Below the pieces are notes generated by a model. That model was given only the letters and a program-made list of their open reading frames with translations. It searched no databases and was not told where the DNA came from. The position numbers were made by a program, and so were the translations under genes. From Helicobacteraceae bacterium (GTDB lineage Bacteria; Campylobacterota; Campylobacteria; Campylobacterales; SZUA-545): DNA of 57,392 bases. The first letter of the stretch is position 1; the number at the start of each line of letters is the position of its first letter. The stretch is from NCBI GenBank assembly GCA_031268655.1, contig JAIRWX010000006.1, forward strand, positions 1 through 57,392, read 5' to 3'. Of the stretch, positions 9,391-26,434 are shown piece after piece.

Positions 9391-11310
9391 TTGCGCGGTT
9401 TGCTCTCTTTGCTAAAGCCCTTTGCGTTTTTCTGTCTGATTTTCTTTGCCCTTTTTGCGGGTTTAAGAGTCGCATTCGCGGTTTTTTACGCGCCTGAAGC
9501 GATAAACGTTAACGATCTTTGTACGGCGCTTTTGATCGGCGCGAGAATGGATTCTATTGTTATTTGCGCGTTGTCGCTGCCCGTCGTTGTATGGACTATT
9601 GCGTCTAACTGCAAGCCGCAAATCGTTAGCCGATTGTATTTTGCTTTTTGCGCATTTTTATTAACTTTTTTTGAGGTTATATCGGCAGGGTTTCTAGATC
9701 AATACGGCCTACGCCCAAATCATCTGTTTTTTGATTATCTGGATCACCCCAAAGAGATATTTTATATGCTGATTTTTGGCTATCCGATCTTGACGTTGAT
9801 CGGCATTTTATTAACCATATTAGCGGCGTTTACGGGTTATAAAATAGGCTCGATTAAAGCCCGCGCCGCGCCGCTTAAAATCCGCCTGATCGCAACGCCG
9901 ATCGCAATCGTCGTCTTGTCGATCGGCGCTCGCTCCAGTTTTGGCATATCGGCGGCAAATCTCGGCGTTACGATGTTTGGAGCTTCGCAAACGCTTAACG
10001 AGATCGCCTCCAACGGAACATACTCCGCGCTGTACTCGCTCTATCAGCTCGACAAAGAGGTTGATCTAAGCGAATATGGAGCGATGGACGACGAAGAGAT
10101 CTTAGCTCGGACGGGCTTTGGCGCTCGGACGTTTAGCGGCACAACGCCGTCCGATCCGCCAAATATCGTTATCGTCATTTGGGAGAGCATGGGCGCGGAA
10201 TTTATAGGCGCTTTGGGCGGTCTGCCGCTAACGCCGAATTTCGATAATCTTGCCAAAGAGGGTACGCTGTTAACCAATATGTACGCGACGGGAACGCGGA
10301 CGAGCCGAGGTATCGAGGCGATTTTGGCGGGGTTTCTGCCGATTGTCGGCGCGCCCGTTGTAAAACTGCCAAAATCGCAAAACGATTTCTGGACGATCGC
10401 AAACCACCTAAAACCGCTGGGCTACAACTGCGAGTTTTTATACGGCGGCGACGCTAACTTTGACAATATGAGCCGTTTTTTAGGCGGCAACGGCTTCGCG
10501 ATCCGCTCCTATTTCGCGCGCGGCGAAGGTTACGACGGCAGATGGGGCAGCGACGATCTGGCGGTTTTTATGGCGGCAAACCGCGAGTTCGCAAAAGCCG
10601 ACGCGCCGTTTTGCGCCGTTATTTTGACGCTCTCGTCTCATCTGCCGTTCGACTATCCAAACGGCGTTGTCGCGCCGTATAACTCCCCCGCCGCCACGCG
10701 GGAAAACGCGGCGTTGTTCGCGGATTACGCGCTTGGCGAGTTTTTCAAAGCGGCGAAACGAGAGCCGTATTATCAAAATTCGATTTTTTTGATCGTCGCC
10801 GATCACACTATTCAGGTGCGCGGCGGCGATCCCTTTGCGCCGCTTGAAAAATATCGTATCCCCGCGCTCTTTCTGGGCAGAGGGGTTAGCGCGGCGAAAA
10901 ACGAAACGATCGCCTCTCAGGTCGATCTGCCGCCCACGCTAATCGCGCTGATTGGCGACGATCGTCCGCGACCGCCGATCGGGCGCGATCTGTTTGCCGC
11001 CTCCGACGAAAAGGGCGAAGCCGTTATGCAGGCCGGCTCCGCTTTTGCCTATCTCGCGGGCGATACGATAACGATTTTGCGCAGGGGCGGTTTTGAGACG
11101 CAGGCGAGGGTTGACGAGAACGGATCGTACAGCCTAAGGAGGGACTTTGCGCTTGGCGAAGACGGCGAATACATCGGCGCTTTGGAGGACGCAAACGCGA
11201 CAGAGGGGCGAACAATCGACGACGAGCTTGCCCGCGACGCGCTGGCAAGGCTGTTGCTGTCCAATCTGCTTTACCAAAAGCGCCTTCACAGCGCGCGGAT
11301 CGTACAATAA
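9391..11310 (+). CDS. LTA synthase-like membrane sulfatase-fold transferase
   Basis: Probably transfers phosphoglycerol or a similar phospho-group to a surface glycan or lipid on the periplasmic side. About five membrane helices occupy residues 1-170. The periplasmic alkaline-phosphatase-superfamily domain starts at IVIVIWESMG (metal glutamate). It continues with TPNFDNLAKEG, a likely nucleophile threonine in TRTSRG, the SSHLPFDYP loop, and the VADH metal motif. The start is TTG with GGAAGG upstream. It heads a run of eleven co-directional envelope genes, with four bases to the next gene. The substrate cannot be read from sequence; a phosphoethanolamine donor is an alternative. Confidence 0.85.
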   Translation: MRGLLSLLKPFAFFCLIFFALFAGLRVAFAVFYAPEAINVNDLCTALLIGARMDSIVICALSLPVVVWTIASNCKPQIVSRLYFAFCAFLLTFFEVISAGFLDQYGLRPNHLFFDYLDHPKEIFYMLIFGYPILTLIGILLTILAAFTGYKIGSIKARAAPLKIRLIATPIAIVVLSIGARSSFGISAANLGVTMFGASQTLNEIASNGTYSALYSLYQLDKEVDLSEYGAMDDEEILARTGFGARTFSGTTPSDPPNIVIVIWESMGAEFIGALGGLPLTPNFDNLAKEGTLLTNMYATGTRTSRGIEAILAGFLPIVGAPVVKLPKSQNDFWTIANHLKPLGYNCEFLYGGDANFDNMSRFLGGNGFAIRSYFARGEGYDGRWGSDDLAVFMAANREFAKADAPFCAVILTLSSHLPFDYPNGVVAPYNSPAATRENAALFADYALGEFFKAAKREPYYQNSIFLIVADHTIQVRGGDPFAPLEKYRIPALFLGRGVSAAKNETIASQVDLPPTLIALIGDDRPRPPIGRDLFAASDEKGEAVMQAGSAFAYLAGDTITILRRGGFETQARVDENGSYSLRRDFALGEDGEYIGALEDANATEGRTIDDELARDALARLLLSNLLYQKRLHSARIVQ

Positions 11311-11314
11311 CGCT

Positions 11315-13132
11315 ATGAATGCCCGTCTAGCGCTGTTTGCAAAAGCCAACCTGGTTTTCATCTCGGTTCTATTTTGCGCGTTTTTACTGCTCGCAAACGG
11401 ATTTGACGCGGCTTCGCTGATCGTCTCGACGCTGGCGGCGCTATCGACGGCGCTGATGTTTTTTGTCGTACTATGGCTCGTTTGCGCGCTGTTCGGCGCG
11501 TTTCGCCGCGCGGGATTTATGATCGCCGCGACGCTGTTTGCGATCTTCGAGCTTTTGCTGATCGTAGATTTTTTTATATATCGTCTTTATTATACGCATA
11601 TCGACGCTATGATTTTGAACATAGTCTTTTCGCCCGCCGCGTTAAACAATATCGATCTGGGCGTTTATCCATATATCATATTTGCCGTTCTAGCGCTGTT
11701 GATCGCGGCTTTTCAATATCTTCTTTATTGCGTTATACCCTATGATAATAAAGCCAGAAAGATCAATAGACGGATCAATATATTTTTAATCCCGCTTTTT
11801 GTTTTGCTGATCGTTTCAGACAAGTTGATCGTTGGTTTTGCGGGTTTGTATTCGCGCACGGAGATTTTGGATAAGCTGCGCGTTATTCCTTACTATCAAC
11901 CGCTTAGTTTTACGAGGTTTGCTAACAAGTATTTTGGCGTGGAGCCGTCGCCAAGACCGATCGCTCTTATCGGGGAAAACGCAAACTCGCAGCTTGATTA
12001 TCCAAAAAATCCGTTGCGTTTTGACGAGAACTATGACGCGAGCAACATTATGGTTATTATGCTGGACGCGGTAAGATGGGATATGATCGACGAGGAGAGC
12101 GCGCCCGCTATAAACGCGCTAAAGCGAGAATCGATCGTTTTTAACAACCATTTCAGCGGCGGCAACGCGACGAGATTTGGCGTATTTTCGCTATTTTACG
12201 GACTTAACGCGCCCTATTGGTTTGCGTTTTTGAGTAGCCAGCGAAACAGCCTGTTGTTTGACGCTCTGGCATATCGCGGTTTTGATATTCGGATATTTGC
12301 CGCGAGCGATCTGAATTGGCCCGAGTTTCGCCGCACTGTTTTCGCCTCGATCAACGACAAAATCATAGACAATTTTGAAGGTCCTCCATATCAAAGGGAT
12401 TATCAGGCGAACGAAGAGGTTTTAAGGTGGCTTGATCAAAATCTTACCGAGCCGTTTTTTGCTTTTATTTTTTACGACGCGCCGCACCAATTTAGCTATC
12501 CGCAAACGCATAGCAAATTTAAGCCAGACGGCGAAGGCGATAAAAATTATCTCACGCTTGGCGCTAGCCAGCGCGATATACTATTTAATCAATATAAAAA
12601 CGCGATCTATTACGACGATTTTCTGATCGCGCAGATTATTGCAAGGCTAAAGACAAGCGGCGCGTTTGAGCGCACAAAAATTATTATCGCCGCCGATCAC
12701 GGCGAAGAGTTTTATGAAAGCGGCGGCTTCGGACATAATCACGCCTTTAGCGTTCAGCAGACAAAGCCTCTGTTTTTTATGCGCCTGCCTAATCAAGAGC
12801 CGCGAACGATTAACGATCTAACCAGCCACGTCGATTTTGTTCCTACCGCTATGCGTTGGCTGGGCGTTCAAAATTCGACGGACGATTACGCGAATGGCGA
12901 CGATCTGTTTCACCCAAAACAGCGGCGCGAATATGCGGTGATCGGCGCTTGGAATTTTAACGCTATCGTAGAAAATAATCAAACGCTTGTTTTCTCCGCG
13001 CACCCCGATCCTATAAACGGCGTTCGCGTTTTTGATACGGATAGCTACAAGCCGTTGCCAAATTCGGCGCTAGGCGATCACAGCCAAGGCGTTTTGCGCG
13101 TAATGAACGAAAACAGAAAGTTTTATAAGTAG
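11315..13132 (+). CDS. YejM/PbgA-like inner membrane sulfatase-fold protein
   Basis: Five or so N-terminal membrane helices (residues 1-195) carry a periplasmic sulfatase-fold domain. The features NIMVIMLDAVRWD, HFSGGNATRFGVFSLFYG and the IIAADHGEEFY metal loop resemble YejM/PbgA, an enterobacterial regulator of lipopolysaccharide synthesis. The threonine in GNATR sits at the nucleophile position, so catalysis is possible. I use the ATG at 11315 (605 residues), just after the previous stop, rather than an upstream start inside that gene. Its role here is inferred only from the envelope-locus context. The next gene starts directly after its stop. Confidence 0.8.
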   Translation: MNARLALFAKANLVFISVLFCAFLLLANGFDAASLIVSTLAALSTALMFFVVLWLVCALFGAFRRAGFMIAATLFAIFELLLIVDFFIYRLYYTHIDAMILNIVFSPAALNNIDLGVYPYIIFAVLALLIAAFQYLLYCVIPYDNKARKINRRINIFLIPLFVLLIVSDKLIVGFAGLYSRTEILDKLRVIPYYQPLSFTRFANKYFGVEPSPRPIALIGENANSQLDYPKNPLRFDENYDASNIMVIMLDAVRWDMIDEESAPAINALKRESIVFNNHFSGGNATRFGVFSLFYGLNAPYWFAFLSSQRNSLLFDALAYRGFDIRIFAASDLNWPEFRRTVFASINDKIIDNFEGPPYQRDYQANEEVLRWLDQNLTEPFFAFIFYDAPHQFSYPQTHSKFKPDGEGDKNYLTLGASQRDILFNQYKNAIYYDDFLIAQIIARLKTSGAFERTKIIIAADHGEEFYESGGFGHNHAFSVQQTKPLFFMRLPNQEPRTINDLTSHVDFVPTAMRWLGVQNSTDDYANGDDLFHPKQRREYAVIGAWNFNAIVENNQTLVFSAHPDPINGVRVFDTDSYKPLPNSALGDHSQGVLRVMNENRKFYK

Positions 13133-15824: not shown

Positions 15825-16669
15825 ACGACGCGCCGCTCGTTTCAATTATAATTCCCACCTATAAGCGCCAGAATCTTTTGCAAAGAGCGGTCAAATCGGC
15901 GTTAAGTCAAACATATAAAAATATTGAAGTTCTGATATGCGACGACGAGAAAAGCGCCGCAACAAAAGCGATTGCAGAATCGATCGCAAAAAATGACAAT
16001 CGCCTGCGTTACCTTGAAAACGTTAGAATAAAAGGCGCGTGCGGCGCCAGGAATACCGGAATTTATGCGGCGCAAGGAGAAATTGTCGCGCTGTTTGACG
16101 ATGACGACGAGATATTAAGCGGCGCGATAGAATCGTTTATAAATCTCGATCTGTACGGGCGCGCTTTTGCCTACGCTTGGCACAACAGAATCTACGAAAA
16201 CGGCAAAATAAAACTTTCTAATAATCCTTCTGATATTGATTATGAAAAATTGGCAAAAGCGGGACAAAATATCGCAAACTCTATGCTATGCGTCGCCAGA
16301 GGAAATCTTGTAGCGATCGGCGGCTTTGACGAAACGTTAAGCGCCTGCCAGGATTACGATCTCTGCCTTAGACTTACAAAGCGCTTTGGAAGCGCCGTTC
16401 TTGCGCCAAACGCGCTATTTAACTACTATTCGGCAAAAAGTTACGAGCGAATATCCAACAGCGCGGATAAAAAATATCGCGGCATGCGCAAGATCGCCTT
16501 AAAACACTCCCGCGAGTTTCCTAAACAATATCGCGCAAAATATCTGTACAAAGTCCGTAAATACCTCTACGGAGCTCATTTGGGACGCGCCTTTGCATGG
16601 TTGCCGCTAAAAGAGGCGCTAAAAGAGCTAAAACATTTCATTAAACACAAAATCAAAAGCGCCGTTTAA
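15821..16669 (+). CDS. GT2 glycosyltransferase, tandem copy 2
   Basis: Paralogue of the preceding gene (282 residues) with the same GT2 motifs: VSIIIPTYKRQNLL, GARNTGIYAAQGEI and the DxD in LFDDDDEIL. The C-terminal halves share the YDLCLRLTKRFG-type and AFAWLPL segments, so they are true duplicates that diverged. The first 201 bases of shared coding sequence are nearly identical, implying recent gene conversion or a recombined duplication. The ATGA overlaps the previous stop. The donor sugar is unknown. Recombination between copies would delete one gene and make a hybrid. Confidence 0.85.
   Translation: MNDAPLVSIIIPTYKRQNLLQRAVKSALSQTYKNIEVLICDDEKSAATKAIAESIAKNDNRLRYLENVRIKGACGARNTGIYAAQGEIVALFDDDDEILSGAIESFINLDLYGRAFAYAWHNRIYENGKIKLSNNPSDIDYEKLAKAGQNIANSMLCVARGNLVAIGGFDETLSACQDYDLCLRLTKRFGSAVLAPNALFNYYSAKSYERISNSADKKYRGMRKIALKHSREFPKQYRAKYLYKVRKYLYGAHLGRAFAWLPLKEALKELKHFIKHKIKSAV
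15835..16035 (+). repeat. 201-bp near-identical direct repeat, copy B
   Basis: Second copy of the repeat at 14987-15187, offset by 848 bases in the same orientation. Homologous recombination between the copies would excise 848 bases, fusing the 5' end of copy 1 to the body of copy 2. Because the segments align codon for codon, the fusion would stay in frame. Confidence 0.9.
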
Positions 16670-17796
16670 TGAACATTCTGTATATATCATGCAAAAAGAG
16701 TTGGGGCGGCGTAGCAAGCTGGATGGTAAAAACCGCTGAAGCTTTGGAACAAAGAGGACATAAAGTATTTATTCTCTCGGCGCGCCATTCGTTTTTTACG
16801 CAAAACGCGCCTAAAAGTTTGCGTTTGATCCCTTGGAATTTCGGCGTCGATTACAGCCTAGTTACAATTTTTTATATAATTTATTTAATAAAAAAACACC
16901 GCGTTAATATCGTGGTTACAAATATCGAAAAAGAGATCGCGTGCGGAGGAATCGCCGCAAAAATTTGCGACGTTCCAAACATTCGCCGCGTCGGGCGGCA
17001 CGATGATTTCAACGACGCTAAACCCAAAATCCGTTTCAGACACGAACGTTTCGTTACGACAAGCGTCGCCCCGTGCGGCGCCGTTTGGCGCGAGGCGCTT
17101 TCGCATTCGCCGTGGTTGAGCGATTACCCTTTTACTACGATCTACAACGGACGCGATCCCGTCCGATCTGATTCCAAATCCGTCGCCGCTTTGCGCGAGT
17201 CGTGGGGAATCGACAAGACGACGATTGCGATAGGAACGACCTCGCGGCTTAACGGCGAAAAAAGAATCGATCTGATCATCGGCGCGTATGTCGCCGCTTT
17301 GCCCAAAATTCGCGCCCCTTCGGCGCTTGTTATATGCGGAAGCGGCAAAATGGAGACGAGTCTAAAAGCGTTTTGCGCCTCTTTGGGCGCGGCAAATCAT
17401 ATTTATTTTGTCGGCTTTACGACAAATCCTCAGCTTGCGGCTTCGGCTTACGATATCGCTTTAAGCGCCGCGGATAATGAAGGTTTTCCTAACTCGGTAG
17501 TGGAGTATATGGCGCAGGGTTGCGCTACAATCGCCGTCGATACGGGAGGGGTAAAAGAGATTGTAATCGATCGCGAGAATGGTCTTCTGATAGACAAAGG
17601 GGATGAAAAAGCGTTGACGGATAAAATCATTATGCTTGCAAACGATGCGGCGCTGCGAAAAAAACTTGGTAAAGCGGCGCAAAAGCGCGTAATGGAAAGT
17701 TTTAGCGAGGCGACGATGATCGATCGGTTTGAAGCCTTTTATCAGGAAGCGGCTACGGCAAGCAGGAGTAAAAAATCTCCGCAAAAACGCGATTAA
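16669..17796 (+). CDS. Glycosyltransferase family 4
   Basis: A GT-B transferase of 375 residues. The N-terminal ISCKKSWGGVASWM segment resembles the glycine-rich acceptor-side loop of GT4 enzymes. The donor domain has GTTSRLNGEKRIDLI, GSGKMETSLK, and the ExxxxxxxE motif in EGFPNSVVEYMAQG, followed by VDTGGVKEIV. The ATG overlaps the preceding TAA by one base (TAATG). The tail is basic (SRSKKSPQKR), which may help membrane binding. Specificity is unknown. Confidence 0.85.
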   Translation: MNILYISCKKSWGGVASWMVKTAEALEQRGHKVFILSARHSFFTQNAPKSLRLIPWNFGVDYSLVTIFYIIYLIKKHRVNIVVTNIEKEIACGGIAAKICDVPNIRRVGRHDDFNDAKPKIRFRHERFVTTSVAPCGAVWREALSHSPWLSDYPFTTIYNGRDPVRSDSKSVAALRESWGIDKTTIAIGTTSRLNGEKRIDLIIGAYVAALPKIRAPSALVICGSGKMETSLKAFCASLGAANHIYFVGFTTNPQLAASAYDIALSAADNEGFPNSVVEYMAQGCATIAVDTGGVKEIVIDRENGLLIDKGDEKALTDKIIMLANDAALRKKLGKAAQKRVMESFSEATMIDRFEAFYQEAATASRSKKSPQKRD

Positions 17797-17817: not shown

Positions 17818-19335
17818 ATGACGATACAAAAACCGTCGCCAAAAAAATCGATTGAAATCGCCGCGATCGCTACGGCGACTACGATTTTTTGTATATTTCA
17901 AGCCGTAGGCGTAGGGCTGCCTATTATTGAACGAATTATCGCAAGCATAGCGTTAATATGGTTTGCAAGATATTATAAGATCGTCGCGATCGCGATCTTT
18001 ATTGTTTTTGTCGTTCCGCTGTTTTATCTTCCGGCGGGTTTTGAATACGGCGCGCCTACGTCCGGTTATATAGCGGCGGTTTTTGAAACCAATCCTAACG
18101 AAACCGCCGAGTTTTTATCCATCTTGCCGATTCGCAACTTTTTCTATCCGGCGGCGCTGCTCGCGGTTCTTGCTTACGCGCTCTTTTGGCGGCGGCTGTA
18201 CCCCCCCCCCCCCCCCCCCAACGGACAAGTAAGCGGGCATGCGAAAACAGCCGCGCTTATCGTAATAATTATCACGCTGTTTTTTAGCTCGATACCATAT
18301 AGGTTTTATCGGGCGATCTATAAAAGTTATGTCGCGTACGCCGATCTAATCGCCAAAGCCGAAGCTACCCCAATAAAAAAGTATGAAATCATAAAACGCG
18401 CCGACGCCGCAAATAAAGATATTCGCATCGTCGTTATAGGCGAAAGCGTTCGCAAGGATTATTTAAGCGTTTATGGTTATCCGCATCAAACCACGCCGTT
18501 TTTAGATAACGCCAACGGCGTATTTATCGACAAAATGATCGCCGCCGGTCCAAGCACAATGGCGTCGCTTTCGCGAATGCTTACCGCTAAAGAAAACGGA
18601 CAGATCGACTGGTCGCGTACAATCGTAACGCTTGGCTCTCAAATAGGGTATGAAACCTATTGGATTTCCAACTCAGGCTTTGCAGGTAAGACGGCTACCG
18701 CGGTTTCGCTGATCGCTTCGAGAAGCGATCGTTCGATATTTCTAAATACGGCGGGAAGCGTTAATTCAGGCGCGGTTGACGACTTTGCGGCGCTGGGAAA
18801 ATTCGACGAGATATTGCAAACGCCCGCACAAACTCCAAAGCTGGTATTTATACACATGGCGGGTTCACATTCGGAGGCTTGCAACAGGCTTTACGGCTTT
18901 CCAAACAGATTTAACTTACCATACGGCGAAGAGCATAACTGCTATCTCGCTACGATAGATAAACTAGATAGTTTTATTAAAGCCCTGATCGATCAAACAA
19001 AGCGGCAAAAATTAAGCTGGTCGCTTATCTACTTTTCCGATCACGGACAAGAACACTACGGCGATAAAAAACAAATTGGATTAAGACATGGCGGCAGGGC
19101 AAAACAGAGCTATGAAGTTCCCCTGTTTTTGCTGGACGACAACGCGACCGAGCATATAGTAATCAAACGGCAAATCAGCGGACTGCATCTAATCGATCTC
19201 GTAGCCTCGTGGCTTGGGGCGGAGACCGACAGAACAGATTCGCGTTATACCTTTACGGATTTCCTCGAGGATAGCGCTATCGATACCTCTAACGGCGCTT
19301 TTGACAATCTAAAGGACGATCCCGCGCTTTATTAG
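17818..19335 (+). CDS. EptA-like phosphoethanolamine transferase with a phase-variable C19 tract
   Basis: A membrane enzyme of the sulfatase superfamily that most likely transfers phosphoethanolamine to lipid A or core sugar. About five helices (residues 1-165) precede a periplasmic domain. That domain has IVVIGESVRKDYLSVYGYP, TTPFLDN, a likely nucleophile threonine in GPSTMASLSRML, HMAGSH, and FSDHGQEHYG. Codons 128-134 (Tyr then six Pro) hold 19 consecutive C bases. With 18 C the frame ends after 137 residues; with 20 C after 156. Both lose the catalytic domain, so the gene is in the ON frame here. AGGG precedes the ATG. The length (505) fits the family. Confidence 0.9.
   Translation: MTIQKPSPKKSIEIAAIATATTIFCIFQAVGVGLPIIERIIASIALIWFARYYKIVAIAIFIVFVVPLFYLPAGFEYGAPTSGYIAAVFETNPNETAEFLSILPIRNFFYPAALLAVLAYALFWRRLYPPPPPPNGQVSGHAKTAALIVIIITLFFSSIPYRFYRAIYKSYVAYADLIAKAEATPIKKYEIIKRADAANKDIRIVVIGESVRKDYLSVYGYPHQTTPFLDNANGVFIDKMIAAGPSTMASLSRMLTAKENGQIDWSRTIVTLGSQIGYETYWISNSGFAGKTATAVSLIASRSDRSIFLNTAGSVNSGAVDDFAALGKFDEILQTPAQTPKLVFIHMAGSHSEACNRLYGFPNRFNLPYGEEHNCYLATIDKLDSFIKALIDQTKRQKLSWSLIYFSDHGQEHYGDKKQIGLRHGGRAKQSYEVPLFLLDDNATEHIVIKRQISGLHLIDLVASWLGAETDRTDSRYTFTDFLEDSAIDTSNGAFDNLKDDPALY
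18201..18219 (+). repeat. C19 homopolymer, slipped-strand phase-variation tract
   Basis: Nineteen consecutive C (poly-G on the other strand) within the coding sequence of the EptA-like gene, between membrane segments and before the catalytic domain. Long G/C tracts of this kind switch surface genes in Campylobacter and Helicobacter by slipped-strand mispairing. No other homopolymer of comparable length was noticed in the window. Confidence 0.93.
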
Positions 19336-19355: not shown

Positions 19356-20321
19356 ATGAAAATTTTATGTATTCAACTTCGGCAGATGGGCGACGCGGTA
19401 ACGACCACGCCAGCCGTTAGACAACTGCGCGCGCTTTATCCGCAGGCGGAGATTGTTTTTATGAGCGAAAAGCTGGGCGCGAATGTTTATCAAAACAGTC
19501 CGCGTATATCGCGGCTGTGGATTGTCCCGCGCAAATTTTCCGCTTGGGCGTTTGTTAAGCTGCTTTGGCGGGTTTACCGCGAGCGTTTTGATATAACTAT
19601 CGATTTTTTTTCCAATTCAAAAAGCGCTCAGATTGCCTTTGCAAGCCGCGCTAAAAAGCGCATAGGCTTTGACTTTCGTTTTCGCCGCTACGCATATACG
19701 CGCCGCATAAATATTGACGGCGTAACGGAGTATGCGCCAAGATCGAAAAATCGCCTGATCGAATCGCTTGGCGGCGATATAAACGACGATAAAATCGAGT
19801 TTTTTATCGATCCCTCGGCGCAAAAAGCGGCGAAAGAGTTTACGGATAAATACGATTTTGGCGATAATACAATCGCCTTTTGCGTCGTATCGCGGCGCAA
19901 ATATAAACTGCTCGATCCAGCGTTCTGGGCGGAGGTTGGCGACGCGCTGATCGCGGCGGGATATAAGCTGTGGTTTGTTTACGGACCGAACGAGAAACCG
20001 ACGGCGAGCGCCGTTTTTGAGCGCTTAACAAGACAAGAGGGCGCGATAATCGATTACAATATGCTCAACGTTCAGGAGCTAAGAGCCATATTGGAGCGCT
20101 GCGCTCTCTACGCGGGCAACGACGGAGGAAGCAAGCATTTAAGCGTCGCGGCGGGGATCGCAAGCGTTACGGTTTTCTCGGTTGTTCGCGCCGAAGATTG
20201 GACGCAAACAGGCGACGTCGCTTTCCAAATTGAAGACGGCGTTCAGCCGCAAGCCGTGATCGCCGCTTGTTTATCTATTTTGCGCAAAAAGAGAGGACAA
20301 AATAGTGAAGGTCGAAGTTAG
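19356..20321 (+). CDS. GT9 heptosyltransferase-like protein
   Basis: A GT-B family 9 enzyme, the family of ADP-heptose:lipopolysaccharide heptosyltransferases, acting on the cytosolic face. Seen: IQLRQMGDAVTTTPAVRQLRALYP at the N-terminus (the positions of LGDxxxxTPxxxxL), PQAEIVFMS, and the donor site GNDGGSKHLSVAAGI with VTVFSV. At 321 residues it is of normal length. A second GT9 gene (waaF) lies at 22652, so this one may be a heptosyltransferase III or IV type. It overlaps the DUF6165 gene by 17 bases. Confidence 0.87.
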   Translation: MKILCIQLRQMGDAVTTTPAVRQLRALYPQAEIVFMSEKLGANVYQNSPRISRLWIVPRKFSAWAFVKLLWRVYRERFDITIDFFSNSKSAQIAFASRAKKRIGFDFRFRRYAYTRRINIDGVTEYAPRSKNRLIESLGGDINDDKIEFFIDPSAQKAAKEFTDKYDFGDNTIAFCVVSRRKYKLLDPAFWAEVGDALIAAGYKLWFVYGPNEKPTASAVFERLTRQEGAIIDYNMLNVQELRAILERCALYAGNDGGSKHLSVAAGIASVTVFSVVRAEDWTQTGDVAFQIEDGVQPQAVIAACLSILRKKRGQNSEGRS

Positions 20322-20676
20322 CAACGGCGAAATCATAGATAAATTAACCATTTTGGTTATCAAGTCCGAGCGCATAAAAGACGCAAATAAACGCGCAAAT
20401 ACGCAAAAAGAGTTAGCCCTATTAAAACAGGCGAGCGAAAATATTATTTCGCAAAACGATCCGCTCTATTTGGAGCTGTTAAGAATTAACGCCGAGCTTT
20501 GGGAGATTGAAGATCAGATACGCGAATGCGAGCGGCGAAAAGATTTTGGCGATCGTTTCATACAACTAGCGCGATCGGTCTATATAAAGAACGATCGCAG
20601 AGCCGAAGTGAAAAAGCTAATCAATTTGCAAACAAACTCCAATCTGATCGAGGAGAAAAGTTATGAAACCTATTAA
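20305..20676 (+). CDS. DUF6165 family protein
   Basis: A 123-residue soluble protein with the features of DUF6165, a family often found in lipopolysaccharide loci. Seen: SNGEIIDKLTILVIKSERIKD, then NAELWEIEDQIRECE, then an ARSVYIKNDRRAEVKKLIN block, ending EEKSY. It is mostly helical. The GTG start at 20305 is inside the previous gene and has GAGAGGA upstream. The function is unknown; position suggests a partner of the neighbouring heptosyltransferase. The stop shares bases with the oppositely oriented deacetylase stop (TTAA). Confidence 0.8.
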   Translation: MKVEVSNGEIIDKLTILVIKSERIKDANKRANTQKELALLKQASENIISQNDPLYLELLRINAELWEIEDQIRECERRKDFGDRFIQLARSVYIKNDRRAEVKKLINLQTNSNLIEEKSYETY

Positions 20677-22652: not shown

Positions 22653-23644
22653 TAGCCGTCCGTTAGTTTATATAACGCTTCCATTACCATTTGCGGCGTT
22701 ATATTATTAAGGCAGTTTGTATGCCCAAGCGGACAAACTCGCTCAAAGCATGGCGAGCAGGGCAGGTTGAGCGAAACAATCGTTTTTTTATCGGTCAGCG
22801 GCGGCGTGTAATCTGGAGTGGACGAGCCGTAAATTGCCGTTATTTTTACGCCCGTAGCCGCTCCGATATGCATAAGTCCGCTATCGTTGCAAATCGCCGT
22901 TTGCGCCAAAGATATTAAGTCGATCGCGTCGGTTAGCGTCGTTTTGCCGCATAGATCGACCGCTTGCGAAGCGATCGCGGTTATTTTCGCGCTTATCGCC
23001 CGATCGTTAGACGATCCGAATATCCAAACGGCGTAGTTATCCGCGATTAACCTATTGGCAAGATCGCCGAAGTTTTCCGCCGACCAGCGCTTTGCTTCGC
23101 CGTACTCCGCGCCGACAAACAGCGCCGCGATCGGCTTTGCCGCGTTTAGCTTAAGCTTTTTTAACAATTTTTCTCGGTTGTTTTGATCGACCGACAGCGC
23201 GGGAAATTGCGGCGCGGCGGTTATATCGTCTAGCGCCAGATATTTTTCTATCATCGTCGGCTTTTTGCTATGCGTTTTTTTTATATCGTTTATAACGCCA
23301 AAACGCATTTCTCCAAGCAGTCCGCTGCGAATTGGAATATGCGCGAAAAAGGGGATCAAAGCCGATTTGAACGTGGTCGGCATAACGATAGCGCGATCGT
23401 AACGTTCCGATCGCAGTTTTTTGCCCAACGTATAGCGTTTTTTAAGTCCAAACTCCCCATGTTTTATATCCAAAAGGATCGTCTTTCGTACCTCGCTCAT
23501 TCGCCCGCAAATATCCAGCGCCCATTTTGGCGCTACAACGTCGATGATCGCGCTAACGCCGTAGCGGGTTTGTAGCGCTTTGAACAGCGTTTGCGCTATT
23601 ACCATATCGCCGATCCAGCTCGGCGCGACGATCAAAAGTTTCAC
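22652..23644 (-). CDS. waaF: ADP-heptose:LPS heptosyltransferase II WaaF
   Basis: Adds the second L-glycero-D-manno-heptose to the inner core. The 330-residue GT9 protein has APSWIGDMVIAQTL (acceptor loop), VDVVAPKWALDI, and the AIVMPTTFKSALIPF segment typical of WaaF. GAEYGEAKRWSAENFGDLA and the donor site CNDSGLMHIGAATG follow, then the PCSPCFERVCPLGH cysteine cluster common in this subfamily. It overlaps pseI by four bases upstream. This links core assembly with pseudaminic acid synthesis on one transcript. Confidence 0.92.
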   Translation of the reverse strand: MKLLIVAPSWIGDMVIAQTLFKALQTRYGVSAIIDVVAPKWALDICGRMSEVRKTILLDIKHGEFGLKKRYTLGKKLRSERYDRAIVMPTTFKSALIPFFAHIPIRSGLLGEMRFGVINDIKKTHSKKPTMIEKYLALDDITAAPQFPALSVDQNNREKLLKKLKLNAAKPIAALFVGAEYGEAKRWSAENFGDLANRLIADNYAVWIFGSSNDRAISAKITAIASQAVDLCGKTTLTDAIDLISLAQTAICNDSGLMHIGAATGVKITAIYGSSTPDYTPPLTDKKTIVSLNLPCSPCFERVCPLGHTNCLNNITPQMVMEALYKLTDG

Positions 23645-24678
23645 GCGATTGACTTAGCCGTAATCGCTTCGCCGCGCGAAATATCTTTAGCGGCGAATGA
23701 ATGCAAAACGCGGGGCAGCTCTTTGGGCGCTAATCCGTATCCCGGGCGGATAACCCGCGTATTGTCGCGCATAAAAGGCTCGCCTTTTTTTATATCTTTG
23801 ATCGCGTAAATCGATCGACGGAAAATCCTGTTTCTCGTCTCGCCTTCGGCGCGTTTAATTCCTTCCGCGCCCAACGTTTTCCACGCCTCGATAGCCGCTC
23901 GTTTCAGATCGCTTAACGCCGACGGATCGATGGAAAACGCGCTATCGGGCGAAGCAAGACTGCGATCGGGCGTGAAATGTTTCTCAATCAACGTCGCGCC
24001 CAGCGCCACGCCGGTAACCGCCGCGCTCAAGCCAAGCGTATGATCCGATAGCCCAACTTCGGTATCGAAGCGTTTTTTAAGATAGGCGATTGTCCGCGTA
24101 TTCGCCGCCTCGATCGGCGCGGGATATTCGCTGACGCAGTGTAGGAGGGCGATCTGCGTCGCGCCGTTTGACCGCGCGATCTCCAACGCCTCGCCGATCT
24201 CCTCTTCGCTGGACGCTCCCGTAGAGATAATCAGCGGTTTTTTAGTTTTCGCAGCCGCCGCGATCAGCTCAAAATCGACTATCTCAAACGAGGCGATTTT
24301 ATAGGCGCTCGCGTTCAGGCTTTCAAGCAGATCGACGCAAGCGGCGTCAAACGGCGAGCTGAAAATGGTAACGCCGATCTCTTTGGCGCGTTCAAACAGC
24401 GCTTTGTGCCAGACAAACGGCGTATAGGCTTCCCTGTACAGATCGTAGAGCGTTCTGCCGTCCCATAAGCCGCCGCGGATCATAAAATCCTCTTTATCGC
24501 AATCGATCGTAAGCGTATCAGGCTCATAGGTTTGTATCTTTACCGCGTCCGCGCCCGCCGCCTTCGCCAGATCGATCGCCTTTAGCGCGTTTGCGAGCGA
24601 TCCCGCGTGATTTGCGCTCAGTTCGGCGACAATATACGGCGGGTTGTTTTCGTTGATTTCACGGCTGTCTATGATCAT
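23641..24678 (-). CDS. pseI: Pseudaminic acid synthase PseI
   Basis: Condenses phosphoenolpyruvate with 2,4-diacetamido-2,4,6-trideoxy-L-altrose to give pseudaminic acid. The NeuB-type barrel shows PYIVAELSANHAGSL, DAVKIQTYEPDT and the PseI-typical GLWDGRTLYDLY. FSSPFDAACVDLL, GLSDHTLGL and IEKHFTPDR follow. A C-terminal SAF (antifreeze-like) domain fills the last 60 residues. The ATG at 24678 gives 345 residues starting MIIDSREIN; further upstream codons would extend into pseG for no reason. It sits 23 bases after pseG. Confidence 0.93.
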   Translation of the reverse strand: MIIDSREINENNPPYIVAELSANHAGSLANALKAIDLAKAAGADAVKIQTYEPDTLTIDCDKEDFMIRGGLWDGRTLYDLYREAYTPFVWHKALFERAKEIGVTIFSSPFDAACVDLLESLNASAYKIASFEIVDFELIAAAAKTKKPLIISTGASSEEEIGEALEIARSNGATQIALLHCVSEYPAPIEAANTRTIAYLKKRFDTEVGLSDHTLGLSAAVTGVALGATLIEKHFTPDRSLASPDSAFSIDPSALSDLKRAAIEAWKTLGAEGIKRAEGETRNRIFRRSIYAIKDIKKGEPFMRDNTRVIRPGYGLAPKELPRVLHSFAAKDISRGEAITAKSIA

Positions 24679-24701
24679 CTGTATGCTCCGAATATGCGCA
24701 A

Positions 24702-25769
24702 TTATCGCAAAGCCGCGCTTTGTATTTCGTCGCAAATACGCGCCGCGCCCGTTCCGTCGCATATATTAAACGCCGCCTTTTCACGCGATCTCACCCGCGC
24801 CTCGTCGATGCGCGAAAGAGCGTCGCCGATTGTATTTTCGGCGAAGATCGCGCCCGCCGCGCCAAGTCGGGCTAGGTTTTCGCGCTGGTTGTCCGCCGCC
24901 GCCATAGTAACGGAGGCAAGCGCGAGGCAAGCGCGCTCGTAGCTGCCCACGCCAAGCGCGCCAACGCCTAGATCGGCTCGCAAAATCAGGAGCGGCATAT
25001 CTCTAGCGTCGAAACGCCAGTCGATTCGCAAACCAAGTTTTCGCCCCAGCTTTTCGTTCTCGGCTATATGCGGCGCGCGCGCGCTCAAAACCGCTACGAT
25101 CGCCGCGTCGTTAAAGGGGCTTGCCGCGAGCGCTTTGAGCGCTTCGCCGGTTAAATTTGCCAAATCGATCCCGCCCATAGAGAGTAAAACGACTCGCGGC
25201 GGAAAACGGCGCGGAAGCGCGAGCGCGCGGTAACGTCCGTAGTCCGGACTTAGCGGCGCGAAAGCCGAGCCGCACAAAAGCCTGCATTGTTTGGAAACCA
25301 GCGACAGATAGTCGTTTGTTTCGCGCATATAAGCGCCGTCGATCAGCAGATCGCAATCGTGAGCGCGATCGGCTAAATCGTCCAAAACGGCGATCTTACG
25401 CGCAAACGGACGCATAGCGCTTTCGTAGCGGCGATCAAGCGCGTAGGAATCGACCAGAAGCAGATCCGCGCCGCCAAGCTCTCTTAACGCCGCCTTGCTT
25501 TGTACAATCTCTTCCTCTAAAGATACGCCAAGCCAAGCCAAATGTTTGGGCTTTGCGGCGTTCGGCTTACAAGCGGTTTTCGGTCGCGGCAGCCTAATCG
25601 CGTCAAAATTTGCCGACGCGAGCCAGCTTAGTCCGTTTGATTCCAGATCGCGACAGATAAAAGTTATCCGCGATCCGCGCGATCGAAGCGCGGCGGCGAT
25701 ATTCATAGTTCTTGAAAGATGTCCAAAGCCAATCGCTAACGAGCTATCGACGCGGATCGCTATTCGCAA
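24702..25769 (-). CDS. pseG: UDP-2,4-diacetamido-2,4,6-trideoxy-altrose hydrolase PseG
   Basis: Releases UDP from the pseudaminic acid precursor, just before PseI. The 355-residue GT-B-like hydrolase has the N-terminal RVDSSLAIGFGHLSRTMNIA, including the catalytic-loop histidine in GFGH. LLVDSYALDRRYE and VLDDLADRAHDCDLLIDG follow, then LLSMGGIDLANLT. The C-terminal GVGALGVGSYERACLALASV recalls the family's GGSSxxE-type donor loop, but the sequence is altered there. It overlaps pseF by ten bases. Confidence 0.9.
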   Translation of the reverse strand: MRIAIRVDSSLAIGFGHLSRTMNIAAALRSRGSRITFICRDLESNGLSWLASANFDAIRLPRPKTACKPNAAKPKHLAWLGVSLEEEIVQSKAALRELGGADLLLVDSYALDRRYESAMRPFARKIAVLDDLADRAHDCDLLIDGAYMRETNDYLSLVSKQCRLLCGSAFAPLSPDYGRYRALALPRRFPPRVVLLSMGGIDLANLTGEALKALAASPFNDAAIVAVLSARAPHIAENEKLGRKLGLRIDWRFDARDMPLLILRADLGVGALGVGSYERACLALASVTMAAADNQRENLARLGAAGAIFAENTIGDALSRIDEARVRSREKAAFNICDGTGAARICDEIQSAALR

Positions 25770-26434
25770 GCGAGCGCCTTAAACATCGCTTCGGCGCGAA
25801 GCCAGTCGGAGGGCGAATCAATATCTTGCACCCGCCTTTTATCGATCAAACAGCCTATAGTTCTCGAGTTAAAGATCGACCTGCCCTCCAAAAAAGCGCC
25901 CGATCGCCCAAAGCAAAAATGCGCCGCGTCGTGAAACGCCTCCTCCAAATCCTGCGATCGCCTCTGCTCATATTCGCGCCAGATTGAGCTGACGCGCCCG
26001 TTTTCATCCATTTTCAAGGCGCGAAAGATCGGCGATTCATAAGCCGCGATCGACAGCGCGAAATCCGCGTCTTCGAGCGTTTGCGCGGCGTTCCTAAGAT
26101 CTTGCGGCGATACAAACGGCGCGGTGGCGTAGATCAAGCAGGCGCGATCCGCGCCGCCAACCGCTTTGATCGCGTGCGCGACGACGGGAACAACGCCGAC
26201 AAAATCGTCGCTAAGTTCCTCAGGGCGCATAAACGGGACGCTCGCGCCGCTCGATCTGGCGACGTTCGCGATCGTTTCGTCGTCCGTCGATACGATTATG
26301 TCGTCGAAAACGCCGCTTTGTATCGCCGCCTCGACGGAGTAGGCGATAATGGGTTTGCCGCAAAATGGACGGATATTTTTACGCTTGATACGTTTACTGC
26401 CGCCTCTGGCGGGAATCACGGCGATTGTTCTCAT
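25760..26434 (-). CDS. pseF: Pseudaminic acid cytidylyltransferase PseF
   Basis: Activates pseudaminic acid to CMP-Pse using CTP. The 224-residue nucleotidyltransferase begins AVIPARGGSKRIKRKNIRPFCGKPII, the classical CMP-sugar synthetase signature. VSTDDETIA and FMRPEELS follow, then a PseF-like ATAPFVSPQDL. It is the first gene of the minus-strand pse-waaF run. pseB, pseC and pseH are not in the window. CMP-Pse may feed flagellin glycosylation or a surface glycan; the neighbours favour a glycan, but this is inference. Confidence 0.93.
   Translation of the reverse strand: MRTIAVIPARGGSKRIKRKNIRPFCGKPIIAYSVEAAIQSGVFDDIIVSTDDETIANVARSSGASVPFMRPEELSDDFVGVVPVVAHAIKAVGGADRACLIYATAPFVSPQDLRNAAQTLEDADFALSIAAYESPIFRALKMDENGRVSSIWREYEQRRSQDLEEAFHDAAHFCFGRSGAFLEGRSIFNSRTIGCLIDKRRVQDIDSPSDWLRAEAMFKALACE

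Follow-up and report, generated by a model that had tools for sequence, protein, structure and literature searches.

The closest described switches of this kind are found in Neisseria, where eptA (lptA), which encodes a phosphoethanolamine transferase, is phase-variable by a homopolymer in both N. meningitidis and N. gonorrhoeae (PMC10525099; Kandler et al. 2014, as cited in PMC5084427). Switching of a phosphoethanolamine transferase with the sulfatase fold is thus already known. The nearest characterised group by type of enzyme comprises Lpt6 of Haemophilus and Neisseria and EptC of Proteus mirabilis, which likewise have an N-terminus with several transmembrane (TM) helices and a sulfatase domain. 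Haemophilus Lpt6 and Proteus EptC place phosphoethanolamine on O-6 of inner-core heptose II (PMC4013655). Poly-G/C contingency loci are, in turn, a regular feature of Campylobacter and Helicobacter (PMC6321876, PMC2823697), as the initial annotation of our locus had noted, although phosphoethanolamine is not mentioned in the main text of the paper on the Campylobacter phasome.

We analysed a window of 57,392 nucleotides, contig JAIRWX010000006.1 of assembly GCA_031268655.1 ('Helicobacteraceae bacterium', phylum Campylobacterota; genome G000 below). On its plus strand, an intact 505-codon open reading frame (17818-19335) contains 19 consecutive C nucleotides at 18201-18219, within codons 128-134. 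Codon 128 (Y, TAC) takes its third base from the first C, and the remaining 18 C make up the codons for P129-P134. At the dinucleotide frequencies of the window, a genome would be expected to contain 4e-8 runs of at least 19 and 0.006 runs of at least 12. The length is thus far above chance expectation, and the tract is the only such long homopolymer in the window. It exceeds the length at which switching occurs, lies inside a reading frame and has a unit that is not a multiple of three, and a change of frame at the tract truncates the protein: 18 C lead to a stop after 137 residues and 20 C to a stop after 156. Neither product extends beyond the TM5 region, and both are without the sulfatase-fold domain (residues 204-467), which lies downstream of both stops. 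The position and open frame of the tract, the two stops and the loss of the periplasmic catalytic domain had all been stated in the initial annotation, and our own reading of the frames reproduces them exactly. The assembly is a fragmented one, and the length of exactly 19, and hence the assignment of the gene as ON, may be wrong by one or two bases.

The encoded protein has the features of a phosphoethanolamine transferase, that is, TM helices followed by a periplasmic sulfatase domain with a threonine nucleophile and metal ligands. Residues 204-467 (18427-19218, plus strand) match the Pfam Sulfatase family (PF00884) at 4e-37. E209, T247, D408 and H409 are invariant in an alignment of 33 homologues, their roles as nucleophile (Thr) and metal ligands being assigned by analogy. 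The AlphaFold model (pLDDT 84) matches N. meningitidis EptA and MCR-1 over their full length, as well as the domain of E. coli EptC, which is the nearest solved structure. The Pfam and structural matches agree with the sulfatase fold named in the initial annotation, which saw the target as an enzyme that decorates lipids or glycans. According to hydropathy and the AlphaFold model, the tract sits in the loop between TM4 (residues about 105-123, 18130-18186, immediately 5′) and TM5 (residues 140-155, 18235-18282, immediately 3′), so that both TM5 and the catalytic domain are absent when the gene is OFF. The loop is gapped and variable in length among the 33 homologues, and by analogy with EptA it is predicted to be cytoplasmic.

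The initial annotation had called the enzyme EptA-like, a label that we reject on profile, score and tree evidence. The top NCBIfam model is CptA/EptC (8.5e-35), well above the EptA and MCR models. None of the NCBIfam models reaches its curated cut-off with this protein; the CptA model PRK10649 does best (120 of 404 bits), compared with 56 of 561 and 43 of 660 bits for the EptA models PRK09598 and PRK11598. In pairwise scores, a Snodgrassella protein (261 bits) and homologues from Pasteurellaceae and Morganella (186-241 bits) are followed by E. coli EptC (86 bits) and by E. coli EptA and EptB (28 bits each). By score, Lpt6-like homologues (185-261 bits) are the nearest relatives outside the family. 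A grouping with the Lpt6-type proteins of Haemophilus and Morganella, and not with EptA, EptB and EptC, is tentative, as some backbone branches of the tree are weak. The H. influenzae match is one that we take, by family and not by accession, to be HI0275. In a tree of the catalytic region in which several backbone branches are weak, the family's genes group with Snodgrassella (99/98), outside the EptA clade, and the three E. coli enzymes EptA, EptB and EptC make up a clade of their own. These comparisons support a closer relationship to the Lpt6-type proteins and E. coli EptC than to EptA. The distance from the characterised Lpt6/P. mirabilis EptC group is nevertheless considerable (about 30% identity), and most of its members that we examined have no repeat of switching length.

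Based on this family relationship, the target is more likely to be an inner-core heptose than lipid A. The better guess of an inner-core substrate draws both on the Lpt6/EptC grouping and on the downstream neighbour, a GT9 gene of the heptosyltransferase family (19356-20321, plus strand). That the tract instead switches the charge of lipid A through an EptA-like activity, an alternative concerning the substrate and not the switching, is unlikely: the fold is shared, the structural matches to N. meningitidis EptA and MCR-1 extend over the full length, and EptC of C. jejuni modifies several targets including lipid A (PMC10525099), but EptA and MCR score far below EptC and Lpt6, and the tree sets the E. 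coli enzymes apart. With an enzyme of the Lpt6/EptC type, therefore, the proposed consequences for lipid A, polymyxin and immunity do not follow.

The gene belongs to a co-directional run on the plus strand that also includes a GT4 glycosyltransferase gene directly upstream (16669-17796), the GT9 gene directly downstream and, as its last member, a DUF6165 gene (20305-20676), all three assigned by profile matches (Pfam/NCBIfam for GT9). The GT4 gene keeps its place in the sister species G002, and the GT9 gene does so in G002 and G003. Elsewhere in the same glycan cluster, 11147-13132 encodes a YejM/PbgA/LapC-like inner-membrane protein (NCBIfam 4e-48, below the cut-off); proteins of this type regulate LPS synthesis in gammaproteobacteria. 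On the minus strand, 23641-26434 contains the pseudaminic acid genes pseI, pseG and pseF, each above its curated NCBIfam cut-off.

We compared homologues within the same bacterial family, with one genome per species; in the scan of the genome collection, a single-protein query gave no match, while an alignment query did. Long repeats are present in the same loop in four other genes, and they are not all of one kind: C17 in G002:C218 (genome and contig), (TC)13 in G002:C75, (AACGGGC)13 in G013:C15, and C15 in a second copy of the gene in the window's own genome, G000:C22. In the first three, two long open frames overlap solely across the repeat, and the gene is otherwise unbroken. Judged by this signature of a single discontinuity in the sequence, these genes are OFF copies. 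The second own copy has decayed, with additional stops and frame shifts; a homologue on G006:C8 is likewise degraded. Repeat-free intact homologues occur on G001:C85 and on G002:C162. The latter is orthologous and syntenic to the window gene, with the same GT4, GT9 and DUF6165 neighbours and 70% identity; since it is intact, the repeat is dispensable for function. Thus, both states are represented, the window gene being ON and the copies with C17, (TC)13 and (AACGGGC)13 being OFF, though these are homologues and not alleles of one species. The comparison with related genomes, which the initial annotation had put forward as a check on the switch, accordingly yielded other repeat types in the same loop and three copies that are OFF at the repeat.

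Two further observations on these copies were set aside. In G003, two contigs share the gene between them, and each of them stops in a G/C run at this site. The runs are poly-G at one end and poly-C at the other in the sense of the gene, which suggests a read artefact, and we regard them as consistent with a tract and no more. Additionally, dN/dS of the OFF copy on G002:C218 is low (dN 0.17, dS 0.92) but does not discriminate as a test of recent function, because the eroded copy on G000:C22 gives a similar value.

Long repeats are also plentiful in the genus as a whole. C/G runs of at least 12 occur in all seven genomes of the genus (19-41 in each) and in all three of the sister genus, and none was found in five further genera of the family. 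CT arrays divide the genera in nearly the same way. The window's own genome has about 30 such C/G runs, of which 14 are internal to contigs and about 17 are no more than about 150 bases from a contig end; the latter are to be discounted, as each may stem from a read artefact or mark a real tract at which the assembly broke. Genes that contain an internal tract or are split by one include an acyltransferase-3/SGNH gene, a GT2 gene, a gene for a subtilase lipoprotein and two TonB receptor genes.

Taken as a whole, these sequence comparisons are best explained by the hypothesis that the C19 tract switches an Lpt6/EptC-like enzyme by translational phase variation, which we consider very probable. 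The on/off interpretation given to the tract at the outset thus finds support in the different repeats at the same site, the copies that are OFF at the repeat, the repeat-rich genus and the lack of a MutL match in the window's own genome. Some of the same facts could also be accommodated by a neutral tract, in which a slippage-prone genome lets homopolymers grow in a permissive loop without selection for switching, and the OFF copies are early pseudogenes. The loop varies in length throughout the family, MutL is not found, and both the second own copy and the homologue on G006:C8 are degraded. However, neutral growth does not readily lead to three types of repeat at one site, each of switching length, to three copies broken solely at the repeat, or to repeats that fall in surface glycan, acyl, receptor and protease genes, and we regard it as distinctly improbable. 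Regarding MutL itself, the protein is also missing or below the cut-off in repeat-poor genera of the family. Because its absence is common, or nearly so, to those genera, we rejected MutL loss as the cause of the repeats; the absence permits the repeats but does not explain them.

An assembly or sequencing artefact, such as the poly-G artefact of two-colour reads or a wrong tract length, would draw on the many G/C runs near contig ends in this genome and on the two G003 contigs that end in such runs at this very gene. The C19 tract, by contrast, is internal to a 57 kb contig and its two flanks encode one homologous protein in one frame, while independent assemblies carry repeats at the same site that are not homopolymers (TC, AACGGGC); an artefact is thus extremely unlikely. 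Hardly more probable is the idea that the repeat tunes expression through transcriptional slippage or ribosomal frameshifting, such that some full-length protein is made at every length. RNA polymerase can slip at long homopolymers, and a partial rescue of OFF alleles would be compatible with the data, but heptamer and TC repeats are atypical signals for RNA slippage, whereas slippage during replication accounts for all of the repeat types.

Under the phase-variation hypothesis, slipped-strand mispairing by DNA polymerase in living cells would add C nucleotides to the tract or remove them. One length class modulo 3, which includes 19, would keep TM1-4 in one frame with TM5 and the periplasmic catalytic domain, while the remaining lengths would yield a membrane stub of 137 or 156 residues. 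As the TM4-TM5 loop is predicted to be cytoplasmic and is variable in length across the family, the number of prolines should not matter to the function of ON variants, and many ON lengths would be equivalent. The enzyme would most likely add phosphoethanolamine to the inner core of LPS or LOS (to heptose, like Lpt6) or to another envelope glycan. The population would then be a mixture of decorated and undecorated cells, from which it presumably benefits.

As in Neisseria eptA, a sulfatase-fold phosphoethanolamine transferase would be switched as a homopolymer within its reading frame grows and shrinks. Unlike Neisseria eptA, which encodes a lipid A enzyme, the present gene belongs to another subfamily and another phylum and carries its poly-C tract in the TM4-TM5 loop, a place that holds dinucleotide or heptamer repeats in relatives of the gene. 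That a single site in one family of enzymes should hold three types of repeat is the less usual part of our findings. The loop could be a switch site that evolves repeatedly, with poly-C, TC and 7-base repeats having arisen separately in paralogous transferases of two related genera; some species would hence have more than one independently switching copy, and possibly a combinatorial surface code. We put this forward tentatively, as a suggestion with somewhat less than even chances. Since the three repeat types occupy one protein position and have the same ON/OFF outcome, they offer a clean natural comparison for the question of whether switching itself is selected. In the Pasteurellaceae, the Lpt6-like Actinobacillus homologues L167 and L181 carry AAAC x16 and AGTC x13 near their 5′ ends and are likely tetranucleotide-switched phosphoethanolamine transferases. 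In view of these repeats, switching of this enzyme type probably arose more than once.

The locus resembles the contingency loci of Campylobacter and Helicobacter in phylum and in the location of G/C tracts within surface-modifying genes, and, as in Campylobacter, homology groups mix repeat-bearing and repeat-free members. In contrast to those loci, the host lineage is uncultured and apparently insect-associated. The sister 'Helicobacteraceae bacterium' metagenome-assembled genomes JAISMA, JAISOU and JAITEA fall inside the accession range of termite-gut genomes (PMC11257099), and from these we infer a termite-gut origin for the window's own genome. Together with the rejection of an EptA-like enzyme, this setting leaves the suggested effect on polymyxin and immune sensitivity unsupported. 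Among papers that join phase variation and the termite gut, the titles and abstracts contain no report of phase variation in this lineage. Our analysis would thus carry the biology of contingency loci into a lineage of Campylobacterota that is uncultured and apparently lives in the termite gut.

Several other repeats in the window's own genome deserve mention. Contigs C1, C4, C13, C15, C17, C23, C33, C44, C51, C54, C59 and C68 have ends near long G/C runs, some of them mixed G and C, which are either real tracts that broke the assembly or two-colour poly-G read artefacts. On contig C48 (L085:3954-5913), the acyltransferase-3 half and the SGNH half of a gene are in different frames, with the break exactly at a G17 run, making this gene a candidate OFF O-acetyltransferase. 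Finally, at least four near-identical lipoprotein-type genes (L218, L220, L222 and L223, on contigs C14, C28, C51 and C52), with the signal peptide ...LISFLFAFTLIGC, each have a (CT)n array at the 5′ end. Their frames differ and three of them are at contig ends. They look like a multi-copy family of CT-switched lipoproteins, in a layout that would resemble that of H. pylori oipA.
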